Source: Halopseudomonas xinjiangensis (GTDB lineage Bacteria > Pseudomonadota > Gammaproteobacteria > Pseudomonadales > Pseudomonadaceae). From it: DNA of 64,000 bases. Position 1 is the stretch's first letter, and each line of letters opens with the position of its first letter. The translations under genes were made by a program, and so were the position numbers. Shown piece by piece: positions 60,290 to 64,000 of the stretch. The DNA lies in the NCBI RefSeq assembly GCF_900104945.1, contig NZ_LT629736.1, positions 2,480,001-2,544,000 of the forward strand, given 5' to 3'. The notes under the pieces were generated by a model that saw only the letters and a list, made by a program, of their open reading frames with translations, ran no database searches and was not told where the DNA came from.

Positions 60290-60733
60290 ATGATCAACGC
60301 CAAACTCTTGCAGCTGGTCGTCAACGCATCGAATGATGGCGTGGTCGTCGCGGAACAGGAAGGCGAGGACAATATCCTCATCTACGTGAACGAGGCGTTC
60401 GAGCGGCTCACCGGCTACACCGCGGAAGAGATCCTTTATCAGGACTGCCGGTTTCTGCAGATGGGTGATCGCGACCAGAGCGGTCTGCACTTGGTCAAAC
60501 AGGCCATCGAAGAGCGCAGGCCAACGCGTCAGGTGGTGCGCAACTATCGCAAGGATGGCTCAATGTTCTGGAATGAGTTATCCATCACGCCCGTATTCAA
60601 CGAGGCTGACCAACTGACGTATTTCATCGGGATCCAGAAGGACGTCACAGCACAGGTCAAGGCCAACCAGCGCGCCGAAGAACTGGAGGCAGAAGTCGCC
60701 GCACTAAGGCAGCAGCTGGCGACCAATTCCTGA
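60290..60733 (+). CDS. Short LOV blue-light photoreceptor
   Basis: A 147-residue stand-alone LOV (PAS) domain protein with no effector domain. The core matches the short LOV proteins PpSB1-LOV and PpSB2-LOV of P. putida: VNASNDGVVVAEQEGEDNI, VNEAFERLTGY, the photoactive Cys53 in LYQDCRFLQ, NYRKDGSMFWNELSITPV and TYFIGIQKDVT with the conserved Gln. A C-terminal helix (AEELEAEVAALRQQL) would mediate dimers. Light forms an FMN-cysteine adduct; how short LOV proteins pass the signal on is not fixed here. Adjacent genes are HD-GYP (convergent, 6 bp) and litR-like. Confidence 0.94.
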   Translation: MINAKLLQLVVNASNDGVVVAEQEGEDNILIYVNEAFERLTGYTAEEILYQDCRFLQMGDRDQSGLHLVKQAIEERRPTRQVVRNYRKDGSMFWNELSITPVFNEADQLTYFIGIQKDVTAQVKANQRAEELEAEVAALRQQLATNS

Positions 60734-60739
60734 CAAACG

Positions 60740-61999
60740 TCAGATCACTTCTTCGGTGTCGGTGAGGCGAATGTTGGCTGCGGTGAAGGTCCCGAGATCG
60801 ATGCCGTACGAGCCATCCACCAGGACCTTGCTCACCCAGTAGCGCGCCATGTCCAGATCGCTGACCGAGGCCGCCAGATCGACGATGACCTGCTCGATTG
60901 GCTGCTTGTTCTCGTCACGTACCAGAGCAATCTTCGGCTGCAAACGGTGCATGGGGTCGACTGACAGCACCACGCCCACTTCACCGGTGTTCATTTCGAC
61001 CAGCGAGCCTGGCGGATAAATGCCGATGCATTCGATAAAGCTCACCACCAGCTTTTCGTCGAACTGAGTGCCGCGATTGTTGTACAGAATCTTCAATGCT
61101 TCAGCGGAAGTGTGGCTGCTGCTGTAACACCGACTGCTGGTGATCGCATCGTATGCATCAACGATCGTAATCGCGCGAATATAGAAATCCAGCGAGCTGG
61201 CCGGCAGCTGACAAGGGTAGCCCTTTCCATCGAGCCGCTCGTGGTGACTGTAAGCGACGCGAATCACCTCCTCCGGCATGTTCGGATCCTTAGCCAGCTC
61301 GTCGCGACCGTAGACCGGGTGCAGCTTGATGTGCGCGAACTCTTCTGCAGTCAGGCGTCCTGGCTTGTTCAAGATGGCCTGATCCAGGTCCATCTTGCCT
61401 ACGTCATGCATCATGCCGCATAGACCCAGCAGCTCTATATGCTTGATGCCCAGCCCCATATGCCGTCCAAGCGCCATGGCTTGAATACCGACGTTAAGGC
61501 AGTGCTCGGCCGTGTACTGGTCGACATGCTTGATGCGGGTTAGCCAGAGCAAAGCGGAGGGATTTCGAACAATGGAATCGAGACATGGACGAACGGCTGC
61601 AATCATCCGGCGGGCATCCAGGGTCTCGCCACGGCACACACGATCGAGCATGGTGCGTATTTCGCGGAACGACTCCCGGTAGCTGTGGTTGGCATTGGCG
61701 ATTTCGGTCTCGATCGAAGAGGAAATCTTGTAACTCGCCTGCGGTTTGCGGGGCTCGGTGACCGATGGGGTAAGCAGCAGGTCGCGCGTCATCGTGCGGG
61801 TTTTCACCACATCGACATGCACGTAGTCGCACAGGTTTTTCAGCGCAAACAAATCGTCAGGGTCGTCCAGCATGAACCCCTGGAACAGAAAGGGCGTTGC
61901 CAACCAATCGCAATCCAGTTCGGAGACGTACATCCCTAACTGAAGTTGCGAGCTCGGCACCTTCAATGTTTGTAGCTGCTGAATCGACTGGGACATCAT
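60740..61999 (-). CDS. HD-GYP cyclic-di-GMP phosphodiesterase
   Basis: A 419-residue protein with an N-terminal DUF3391 domain (LKVPSSQLQLGMYVSELDCDW, residues 8-28) and an HD-GYP domain with HDVGK in GMMHDVGKMDL and HHERLDGKGYP, the complete metal and GYP motifs. It should hydrolyse c-di-GMP. The start is uncertain: ATG at 61999 (MMSQSIQQLQ) is preferred over TTG at 62089, which lacks a site. It is convergent with the LOV gene, with only 6 bp between stops. Confidence 0.9.
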   Translation of the reverse strand: MMSQSIQQLQTLKVPSSQLQLGMYVSELDCDWLATPFLFQGFMLDDPDDLFALKNLCDYVHVDVVKTRTMTRDLLLTPSVTEPRKPQASYKISSSIETEIANANHSYRESFREIRTMLDRVCRGETLDARRMIAAVRPCLDSIVRNPSALLWLTRIKHVDQYTAEHCLNVGIQAMALGRHMGLGIKHIELLGLCGMMHDVGKMDLDQAILNKPGRLTAEEFAHIKLHPVYGRDELAKDPNMPEEVIRVAYSHHERLDGKGYPCQLPASSLDFYIRAITIVDAYDAITSSRCYSSSHTSAEALKILYNNRGTQFDEKLVVSFIECIGIYPPGSLVEMNTGEVGVVLSVDPMHRLQPKIALVRDENKQPIEQVIVDLAASVSDLDMARYWVSKVLVDGSYGIDLGTFTAANIRLTDTEEVI

Positions 62000-62221
62000 G
62001 AACACCATCGGGCCATCCGTGAACGCTAGCGGTACCAAGGTATTTGGACTGTCAAAATCGACATAGTTCCCTTGAACTGCTGAACGCAATGCTCAACGGC
62101 TGGGCAGCTTATCTAGGACATGGCAAGAACGCGAACGCCATTGATGGCGCTATGATGTCATTTAACGCGAGCGAGTGGTTCGACGAAAAGGGCAAAGGCG
62201 AAAAAAGGCAGGTAACGGAAT

Positions 62222-62265
62222 AAAAAAACTCCGATAGCCTGAAGTGGGGAAAGCGGCTATCGGAG
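62222..62265 (-). terminator. Strong rho-independent terminator (minus strand)
   Basis: On the minus strand CTCCGATAGCC, 15-base loop, GGCTATCGGAG then seven T's. A perfect 11-bp stem. It ends transcription coming from litR or from the promoter at 62282-62317. Confidence 0.9.
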
Positions 62266-62281
62266 TGCGCAGCGGTTTATG

Positions 62282-62317
62282 TGTACAGAGACTATACGAA
62301 TACGTTTTTTTGTACAA
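62282..62317 (-). promoter_or_regulatory. LitR-type promoter/operator upstream of the terminator
   Basis: On the minus strand: TTGTAC (62317-62312), 15 bases, TATAGT (62296-62291). The plus strand shows TGTACA (62282-62287) and TATACG (62293-62298), TNTACA-like half-sites exactly 11 bp apart, and the palindrome TTGTACAA (62310-62317). It faces the terminator, so it could make an RNA of about 60 bases. Confidence 0.5.
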
Positions 62318-62342
62318 GACATAACCAGCTTTTTTTTGGTCC

Positions 62343-63314
62343 TCACCGCACGTCAAGTCTCCCCGCCAGAAGCGAACGTATCTTACCGAGCAGCGCCTGC
62401 CCCGGATCCCCCAGGCAAGCGATGCCGCTGCGCTCCATTTCCTGATGATGAAGCTGGCAGACAGCGCCAGCGATGGCTAGCGGGCAATCGAGCGCACGCT
62501 CGAGTCTCGGCAACCTCTTTTTAAGTATCTCGGCATCCAGCGACCGACTCCCGATCAGCACCACTGCGGCCACGGAAGAACGCTGCGCGGCGAGATGAAT
62601 GTCCGGAAAGGAGGCAGTGATCGGCAATATGCTCACATTGCAACCAGCCTCGGCGACACAGGCAGCCACCAGGAGCACGTCGAGTTCTCGTAGCGGACCG
62701 GGCAGGCAGGTCACCAGAACTGTCGGGACGCCTTCCGCTACATACCCCACGCGCTGCGACAGCCGCATGCGCACAAAGCTGTCAAAGAAAGCCCACTGCG
62801 GTGACGTGCCAGGAGCGGGCTGGCCGTGGAGGCGGCGCCACACCGGCAGGAGGACGCTATTGATAACCACCGGTAGCGGGTAACTTGCAAAAACCTGACC
62901 GTAAATGCGATCCAGCGCCCCAACGCTGAACTGAGCGACCGCATCGATGAGACGCTCCTGCCAGGGCTGCATGTCGTCCGGCAAGGGCGTGTCGACCAGC
63001 TGCACGGGGCGCGGCGAGCGCCGGGCTTCCGGAGGCGGAGCCTGACGATCGATGATCGACCCGACCTTGCTCACCGCGACGCCCCGCTCGATCCACGCCG
63101 TGACCGCTCGCACCCTTTCTATGTCAGCCATCGAATAGAGACGATGTCCGCTTTCCGTCCGATGCGGCACGAGCAGACCGTAACGCCGCTCCCAGGCACG
63201 TAGCGTGACCGGGTTGACGCCGGTTAGCCTGGATACCTCGCGAATCGGGTACAGCTCTTCGGAATCCAGGTCCATCCGCACCAGCGAAGCGCTGCTCAAG
63301 GTGTCATCATTCAT
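62343..63314 (-). CDS. MerR regulator, class II LitR-like
   Basis: A 323-residue MerR-family regulator with a CarH/LitR-like body. The DNA-binding domain is LYPIREVSRLTGVNPVTLRA, then WERRYGLLVPHRTESGHRLY (residues 21-60). The C-terminal half keeps the B12-binding fold (VLVTCLPGPLRELDVLLVAA, CVAEAGCNVSILP) but lacks the histidine of the ExHxxG motif (RELDV in its place) and has no W-x9-EH motif. Such B12-independent class II LitRs act as light-controlled repressors in P. putida, together with a short LOV protein. The ATG at 63314 is preferred to one 18 bases upstream. Confidence 0.85.
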   Translation of the reverse strand: MNDDTLSSASLVRMDLDSEELYPIREVSRLTGVNPVTLRAWERRYGLLVPHRTESGHRLYSMADIERVRAVTAWIERGVAVSKVGSIIDRQAPPPEARRSPRPVQLVDTPLPDDMQPWQERLIDAVAQFSVGALDRIYGQVFASYPLPVVINSVLLPVWRRLHGQPAPGTSPQWAFFDSFVRMRLSQRVGYVAEGVPTVLVTCLPGPLRELDVLLVAACVAEAGCNVSILPITASFPDIHLAAQRSSVAAVVLIGSRSLDAEILKKRLPRLERALDCPLAIAGAVCQLHHQEMERSGIACLGDPGQALLGKIRSLLAGRLDVR

Positions 63315-63381
63315 AGGGTCGCTCGTCCGCATGGCGCAGCTGCGCCTAAATGCGGTCAGCTTACTCCCTTCACCGGACGAT

Positions 63382-63398
63382 TTGTACGGCTGTTGTAT
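63382..63398 (-). promoter_or_regulatory. TNTACA direct-repeat operator upstream of litR-like gene
   Basis: TTGTAC (63382-63387) and TTGTAT (63393-63398) are exactly 11 bp apart; on the minus strand this reads TATACA and CGTACA. It lies about 70 bp before the litR-like ATG, where self-repression would act. Confidence 0.55.
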
Positions 63399-63616
63399 AG
63401 CTTGTTGCGCCACTGACGGGATCGCCCGCCTGCGCCCCCGCCTTACTTAGCCAGGGTCGGGCGGCCTATACCAGAGCCCACCCTGTCCGTCCGAGCACTG
63501 CCGGCTGGCCGCACGTGGTACTATTCCCGGGCGAAGCCGGACGATTCTGGGACGACCTGATTGGCGACAACAGCGGTCAGACTTCTCAGCCCCATACGTA
63601 GGCGGGACGCAAAAGA

Positions 63617-63676
63617 TTGTACAGATCTGCGTCGATGCCTAAGTTTTTCTTGTACGTTACAGCTGGAAAATATAAG
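63617..63676 (+). promoter_or_regulatory. folM promoter with TTGTAC elements
   Basis: TTGTACA (63617-63623) is followed by TTGTAC (63650-63655), 15 bases, TATAAG (63671-63676). The -35/-10 layout with a 15-base spacer is the same as at 62282-62317. Confidence 0.5.
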
Positions 63677-63749
63677 TTTTGCTATTCTTCAGATCGGATT
63701 GCTTGGGTCGCCAAGTCCGTAGCCCCATCTGGTTCGTACGAGTGCACCC

Positions 63750-64000
63750 ATGAAAGCAAATGGCACCATTCTCATTACCGGAGCGGCCCAGCGCATCGGC
63801 CTGCACTGCGCGAAACGCCTGGTCGAAGATGGCTATCGCGTGCTGATAACCTGCCGTCACCAGCGTGAAGACTGGGCGCGCGACCCTCTCGACGGCATAG
63901 AAGTCATTCAGGCGGATTTCTCTACCACTGCAGGAATCGAGGCGCTTATCGCCGGACTGATCAATCGTGGCGTCCAGCTCAGGACAATGATTCACAACGC
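63750..64000 (+). CDS. folM: Dihydromonapterin reductase FolM, cut by the window end
   Basis: The first 83 residues of a short-chain dehydrogenase: Rossmann motif LITGAAQRIGLHCAKRL, then the FolM-typical IQADFSTTAGIEAL and LRTMIHNA-like stretch (here LRTMIHN). FolM reduces dihydromonapterin and dihydrofolate with NADPH. The start is ATG at 63750 without a strong ribosome binding site. The divergent position next to a light-type regulator fits the light-controlled pterin/folate and photolyase genes known for P. putida. Confidence 0.85.
   Translation, partial: MKANGTILITGAAQRIGLHCAKRLVEDGYRVLITCRHQREDWARDPLDGIEVIQADFSTTAGIEALIAGLINRGVQLRTMIHN

Follow-up and report, generated by a model that had tools for sequence, protein, structure and literature searches.

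The LOV/LitR locus of Halopseudomonas xinjiangensis

We analysed a 64,000-nucleotide stretch of the Halopseudomonas xinjiangensis genome (NCBI RefSeq assembly GCF_900104945.1, contig NZ_LT629736.1, positions 2,480,001 to 2,544,000 of the forward strand; hereafter the window), whose last part, from position 60,290, carries genes for a short LOV blue-light sensor, an HD-GYP protein, a class II LitR-like repressor and, divergently, the start of folM (Table 1). Between litR and the HD-GYP gene lie three LitR-type boxes, a promoter-like element and a hairpin with a T-run, together called the cassette below, which may specify a light-controlled small RNA (sRNA). We lean towards reading the locus as a LOV/LitR blue-light switch of the kind published for Pseudomonas mendocina with an extra output, a small noncoding RNA derived from the 3' end of an enzyme mRNA.

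Table 1. Genes and predicted elements of the locus, in window coordinates.
Feature	Coordinates	Strand	Remarks
Short LOV blue-light sensor protein	60290..60733	+	147 aa, Cys53; PAS_9 E 1.7e-21
HD-GYP protein with DUF3391	60740..62005	-	421 aa from ATG at 62005; longer TTG frame starts 62089
Candidate light-controlled small RNA, ~62 nt	62222..62284	-	start ~62284 estimated from -10; end taken as the T-run
Hairpin	62229..62265	-	11-bp stem (62255-62265 with 62229-62239), 15-nt loop with TTTCCCC; then T-run 62222-62228
CTGCGCA, single-stranded, before stem	62266..62272	-	common to relatives in other genera
LitR-type box 3, TGTACA	62282..62287	-	at expected RNA start
LitR-type box 2, CGTATA	62293..62298	-	overlaps -10-like TATAGT (62291-62296)
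TTGTAC, -35-like	62312..62317	-	within LitR-type box 1 (TGTACA 62311-62316)
Class II LitR-like MerR-family repressor	62343..63314	-	323 aa; MerR_1 E 3.1e-16
TGTACG-N5-TGTATA, upstream of litR	63383..63399	unassigned	two boxes 11 bp apart; sequence read
folM promoter region	63618..63676	+	TGTACA 63618-63623; TTGTAC 63650-63655, N15, TATAAG 63671-63676
folM (dihydromonapterin reductase), start	63750..64000, continues to 64451	+	first 83 codons in window

The sensor matched PAS families only, with no effector domain, and retained the adduct cysteine (residue 53, in YQDCRFLQ), which was unchanged in all 12 aligned relatives, as expected of the sensor of a PmSB-LOV/PmlR2-type switch. Its best-ranking sequence relatives in the PDB were 7r5n (E 3.3e-68) and 3sw1 (E 1.2e-54), both titled 'Sensory box protein', the latter of which we take to be PpSB1-LOV of P. 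putida. The adjacent MerR-family LitR likewise fits this type in that it appears to lack a working B12 domain: its B12-binding domain stayed under cut-off (19.6 versus 32.1 bits), the CarH model reached 78.6 of 400 bits and [DE]xHxxG, presumably the motif of a working B12 domain, was absent from the translation when read directly. The complete FolM scored above the dihydromonapterin-reductase cut-off, with folE and then folX following beyond the window, and this folM-folE-folX order next to litR, together with LitR-type boxes ahead of folM, is again that of the P. mendocina type. In four Halopseudomonas clusters (L070, L072, L073 and L084) a neighbour of folE was 33-38% identical to the window FolM and was placed behind folE, not before it.

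A first-pass annotation, made from the letters of the window, had listed the short LOV protein with Cys53, the HD-GYP gene convergent with it 6 bp away, LitR, divergent folM and TGTAC boxes, all of which were borne out by family searches and sequence reading. Extension of the contig beyond 64000, which it had suggested, placed folE directly behind folM and phrB about 55 kb away with a second LitR (36% identity), the latter lying between phrB and an open reading frame (ORF) that we take to be RudS-like. The further claim that the window holds the sensor, the regulator and folM as a target finds support in homology to, and a shared gene order with, pmSB-LOV/pmlR2/folM-folE-folX of P. mendocina. 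A P. mendocina locus with the same parts has been published (PMC9758184), and this claim therefore restates a system known from another genus and is not new. Judged from sequence, sensor, repressor and folM very probably form a switch of this published kind.

Boxes and hairpin between litR and the HD-GYP gene

TGTAC elements occurred at 62282, 62311, 63383, 63618 and 63651. When the published LitR consensus, TRTACA-N12-TGTAYA, was scanned across the genome (a 3.54-Mb single contig), 62293-62316 was among the five best places, two of which were exact and three, this one included, had one mismatch. Both exact sites sit at the litR1/phrB locus; of the LitR-type sites found elsewhere and situated between genes of this module, 62293-62316, which separates litR from the HD-GYP gene, ranks first. 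Matches with two mismatches were at background level (136 places versus 144 for a reversed control), and weaker consensus matches therefore mean little; the boxes before folM are such a weak match, with two mismatches. The two exact sites (L031 3777-5085; G000:C1:2595777 and 2597049) stand before an oxidoreductase-like ORF and the RudS-like ORF. The paired boxes upstream of litR could possibly serve its self-control.

The boxes at 62282-62317 overlap a promoter-like TTGTAC-N15-TATAGT. Across 12 Halopseudomonas copies, the -10-like hexamer at N15-17 from the first box scored 56 of 72 letters, compared with a mean of 36.5 and a maximum of 48 in single-letter shuffles (0 of 1000 as high). In the window genome folM, the RudS-like gene and a site preceding a pair of genes of ~390 aa, presumably acyl-CoA dehydrogenases, show the same geometry of box and -10. 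That last site (L032 13679-13702; G000:C1:3463679-3463702), possibly a further LitR target by its sequence, has TTGTAC-N15-TATAAT with a TGTACA-N12-CGTATA site and lies between a methyl-accepting chemotaxis protein gene (minus strand) and the gene pair (plus strand).

In all 24 cassettes examined, at least two boxes lay within 130 nt of the hairpin (64 boxes in total; dinucleotide shuffles gave a mean of 4.2 and a maximum of 11); none of 20 terminators of the enzyme gene described below had any box. Of these cassettes, 23 were matches to R1, a covariance model, and L220 was chosen after its boxes had been seen; the set excludes L126, L127 and L217, whose boxes lie more than 130 nt from the hairpin. 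Box spacing was 19+11 or ~29-30 in Halopseudomonas and 11+17 or 11+18 in several copies from other genera, as if the operator were reversed.

The hairpin is conserved in both pairing and sequence. Stem pairing held in 121 of 121 cells across 11 aligned copies, with both-sided changes at four of the 11 stem pairs; shuffles averaged 0.8 such pairs, 1 of 500 reaching that number, and sliding controls gave 0-2. Compensatory changes of this kind are what is looked for in a free-standing bacterial sRNA. The window copy folds at -21.5 kcal/mol, versus a shuffled mean of -10.24 (z -4.87), and the RNA length implied, ~62 nt here, is 62-97 nt in the other Halopseudomonas copies. Conservation of the hairpin was 0.89 over 40 columns in 11 genomes, compared with 0.79, 0.79 and 0.74 (the last in seven genomes) where three other intergenic regions of the locus are best conserved; the hairpin-bearing region as a whole was the least conserved of the four (0.36). 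The loop TTCCCC and the unpaired CTGCGC were identical in all 12 Halopseudomonas copies, and the obvious candidates for pairing in the predicted RNA are CUGCGCA and the C-rich loop. A short peptide product was rejected, there being no six-codon frame in the window copy or in L062 and no reading frame common to the 12 copies. No Rfam family exceeded its gathering score in the window stretch, and four matches on 14 further loci (up to E 1) all stayed under cut-off; in L116 and L120 three of these fell beyond the R1 hairpin or at its far end, and one was on the other strand. In L116 (1443-1514, minus) and L120 (1543-1614, plus), a second stretch behind the enzyme hairpin is similar to Rfam anti-hemB, with 28.9 and 25 bits where the cut-off is 49.5.

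Among 37 Halopseudomonas genomes compared, LitR was found at E <= 1e-40 in 30, of which 25 have a LitR/LOV cluster beside mioC or fol genes (that of G033 being split over two overlapping contigs) and five a RudS/phrB-linked arrangement. Boxes, CTGCGC, hairpin and T-run follow litR in 12 of the 25 clusters, with one strong R1 match per genome, and the cassette is also present in other genera. In the family, R1 matched 51 of 298 genomes at E <= 0.001 (53 places), and the 48 places read in context comprised 23 boxed cassettes, 21 enzyme terminators, two half-deleted enzyme genes and two unrelated sites; three further weak places (E 0.004-0.009) were ordinary terminators without boxes. CTGCGC is invariant by selection in alignment A4, which was chosen by these letters. 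Less selected support comes from all 18 R1 matches compared, where CTGCGCA had a constant position, although these letters are part of the R1 model, and from 10 of the 11 named enzyme genes described below.

Proposed origin and light response of the candidate RNA, and alternatives

The enzyme gene just mentioned encodes a 592-aa acyl-CoA dehydrogenase. At 11 named loci it has at least two boxes in front (11 of 11) and the CTGCGC hairpin ~30 nt or less past its stop (10 of 11), and 14 of another 16 enzyme loci showed a strict three-box pattern; in relatives the enzyme ATG comes immediately after the boxes. In L128, L129 and named loci such as those of P. peli and P. guineae, this gene lies between LitR and LOV. 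Intermediate forms exist as well: L126 and L127 keep the boxes, a decayed start region, the last codons and the hairpin, the middle of the gene being deleted, and they aligned to both ends of the intact L242 gene with scores of 115 and 151 (L126) and 100 and 148 (L127), against maxima of 25-33 in single-letter shuffles. Intact L242 and the emptied copies in L124, L125, L126 and L246 share one and the same SDR gene in front; it was looked for before the L127 copy and not found there. Boxed enzyme copies are 83-98% identical to the L128 copy, and the boxed enzyme is absent from all 37 Halopseudomonas genomes, the listed relatives being 51-56% identical to the L137 copy.

In a tree of 75 loci built by a quick method from LOV, LitR, FolE and FolM (some rows being near copies), 18 loci had the cassette, 13 the enzyme and 44 neither. 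The cassette takes eight changes on this tree, at least seven of them forced by well-supported branches, and the counts do not tell gain from loss. The outcome is alike at two genomic places, LitR/LOV and SDR, so that two or more independent events appear hard to avoid. We propose that the candidate RNA is by descent the 3' end of the LitR-boxed enzyme mRNA, whose coding part would have been lost more than once with boxes and hairpin retained.

From the sequences, their conservation and covariation, the box enrichment and the deletion intermediates, we infer a promoter, transcription, light control and a regulatory role as follows. In the dark, LitR would occupy the TRTAYA boxes of folM and those of a second promoter, located downstream of litR, where the boxes overlap the -35, the -10 and the start of the short transcript, and would repress both. 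Under blue light, a flavin-Cys53 adduct would form in LOV, which would then bind LitR and lift it off the DNA, as shown in P. mendocina and presumed here. The second promoter would next yield the ~62-nt RNA, consisting of CUGCGCA, the strong hairpin and a U-run, and its transcription would end before the HD-GYP gene. The cassette is likely to be transcribed under LitR control in this manner; whether its RNA has a regulatory role seems to us an even call.

Several results weigh against an RNA output of the switch. A simple consensus scanner reported no promoter and no terminator in 61950-62500, the spacer of 15 and loop of 15 falling outside the limits it uses. A target search with the loop complement gave nine places each in G000 and G009, whose loops are identical, fewer than the reversed control, and these places had no gene in common except the locus itself. 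R1 also matched outside the family, in five genomes of a 145-genome draw of the order at E <= 0.001 (best 2.5e-7). Neither boxes nor CTGCGC accompanied any of the five weak matches read in context (four outside the family and G049 within it), and gene context is therefore required to call a cassette, an R1 match alone having been rejected as proof. In addition, terminator function alone would explain the conservation of the stem, the cassette is missing from 13 of the 25 Halopseudomonas clusters and the C-rich loop is not retained in three of the four copies of the P. linyingensis group.

These last points also speak for the best of the alternatives, in which the boxes and terminator merely persist after loss of the coding part, the hairpin serving to end the litR transcript and any short RNA being a functionless by-product. 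The existence of half-decayed enzyme copies and the former role of the hairpin as terminator of the enzyme gene suit it equally. We nevertheless consider it unlikely, since a bare terminator needs neither the loop nor the unpaired CTGCGC that are the same in all 12 Halopseudomonas copies, the boxes and -10 stay with the hairpin, and no other noncoding stretch tested at the locus is as well conserved as the hairpin.

Alternatively, the boxes might control the HD-GYP gene, by read-through or as a regulated leader, so that blue light would alter cyclic di-GMP (c-di-GMP), much as the first-pass annotation had it in placing a c-di-GMP output beside the switch. The HD-GYP protein has DUF3391 (E 3.7e-23) and HD_5 (E 2.4e-21) over cut-off, and its translation contains HD..GK and HHERLDGKGYP, the HD and HHExxDGxGYP motifs of a putative HD-GYP phosphodiesterase; the gene, whose stop codon is 6 bp from that of LOV, has the boxes upstream in the same direction, and a PilZ-type gene occupies its slot in some Pseudomonas. 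However, a strong hairpin with a T-run stands between boxes and gene and would end the transcript path of the strongest LitR-type site before HD-GYP is reached. Moreover, eight of the 12 Halopseudomonas clusters with boxes and hairpin have no HD-GYP gene, which led us to reject HD-GYP control as the leading reading, and five of the nine with HD-GYP have no cassette. Boxes and hairpin go together and HD-GYP (six changes on the 75-locus tree) is patchy. The boxes appear to lead to something other than HD-GYP; the proposed c-di-GMP output is not supported and control of HD-GYP through the boxes is quite improbable. By sequence comparison, HD-GYP is a patchy, independent neighbour, not clearly part of the light switch. 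We give as little credence to the idea that the boxes serve an oppositely directed promoter, antisense to the end of litR, or merely hold LitR: they are palindromic and the 19+11 spacing of Halopseudomonas mirrors that of other genera, but the -10-like hexamers in 12 copies lie in the hairpin direction, with a geometry that the window genome repeats at three other places, among them folM and the RudS-like gene, and in relatives the boxes directly precede the enzyme ATG.

More tentatively than the RNA output itself, Pseudomonadaceae may repeatedly have hollowed out a light-controlled acyl-CoA dehydrogenase gene, the LitR promoter and CUGCGCA hairpin being kept because the 3' end is a regulatory RNA; the outcome, which we hold possible rather than probable, would be a blue-light-induced sRNA under LOV/LitR with parent, half-deleted and finished forms in living species. 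The switch itself is already published in another genus, and the new part is the candidate boxed hairpin RNA with its proposed derivation from the enzyme gene end; judged by title, none of the open-licence papers listed in the literature searches dealt with an sRNA of Pseudomonas controlled by light or LitR. Should the proposal hold, the best-defined short-LOV light switch would gain an RNA output beside its protein genes, and related genomes would show, under one regulator, how a regulatory RNA arises from an mRNA.

Comparison with known light switches and small RNAs

According to PMC9758184, the P. mendocina NBRC 14162 locus comprises pmSB-LOV, PME15565, pmlR2 and folM-folE-folX, PME6650 and folM have promoter regions to which the class II LitR PmlR2 binds, and illuminated PmSB-LOV binds PmlR2, relieving repression in vitro. 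The H. xinjiangensis locus resembles PmSB-LOV/PmlR2 in its short LOV protein with Cys53, class II LitR, divergent folM-folE-folX and TGTACA-type boxes before folM, and the words small RNA, sRNA and noncoding do not occur in that paper.

In the comparison of gene order that the first-pass annotation had suggested, the P. mendocina loci L201 and L226 have the gene order of the window (identities to the window proteins: LOV 73-74%, LitR 42-44%, FolM 58%, FolE 80%). HD-GYP occurs in nine of the 25 Halopseudomonas clusters. The slot between LOV and LitR differs, holding a ~202-aa gene in P. mendocina and the RNA cassette and HD-GYP in the window. The P. mendocina gap of ~715 bp has one ~202-aa frame on the LOV strand, probably PME15565, and a slot gene of this size is also found in other Pseudomonas; it lies at L174:7517-8122, and the P. 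mendocina loci L201 and L226 have equivalents. Of two such proteins from other species compared with Pfam, one exceeded the PilZ cut-off (26.6 versus 22.5 bits) and one had no match, hinting at a c-di-GMP connection in a form other than HD-GYP.

Comparison with PplR1-3/PpSB-LOV of P. putida KT2440 follows the account in the introduction of PMC9758184: there, too, class II LitR proteins work with a short LOV protein, controlling phrB, folE and others. Among RNAs, the alphaproteobacterial sRNA ar7 (Rfam RF02342) shares a terminator-type hairpin with a C-rich loop. The hairpin alone matches, and its 21.1 bits, where the gathering score is 60, amount to a likeness and not membership. Small RNAs made from mRNA 3' ends form a general class, in which the RNA is the terminator end of an mRNA; for the present candidate, by contrast, related genomes show the parent gene, half-deleted forms and the free-standing form, all with one set of boxes.

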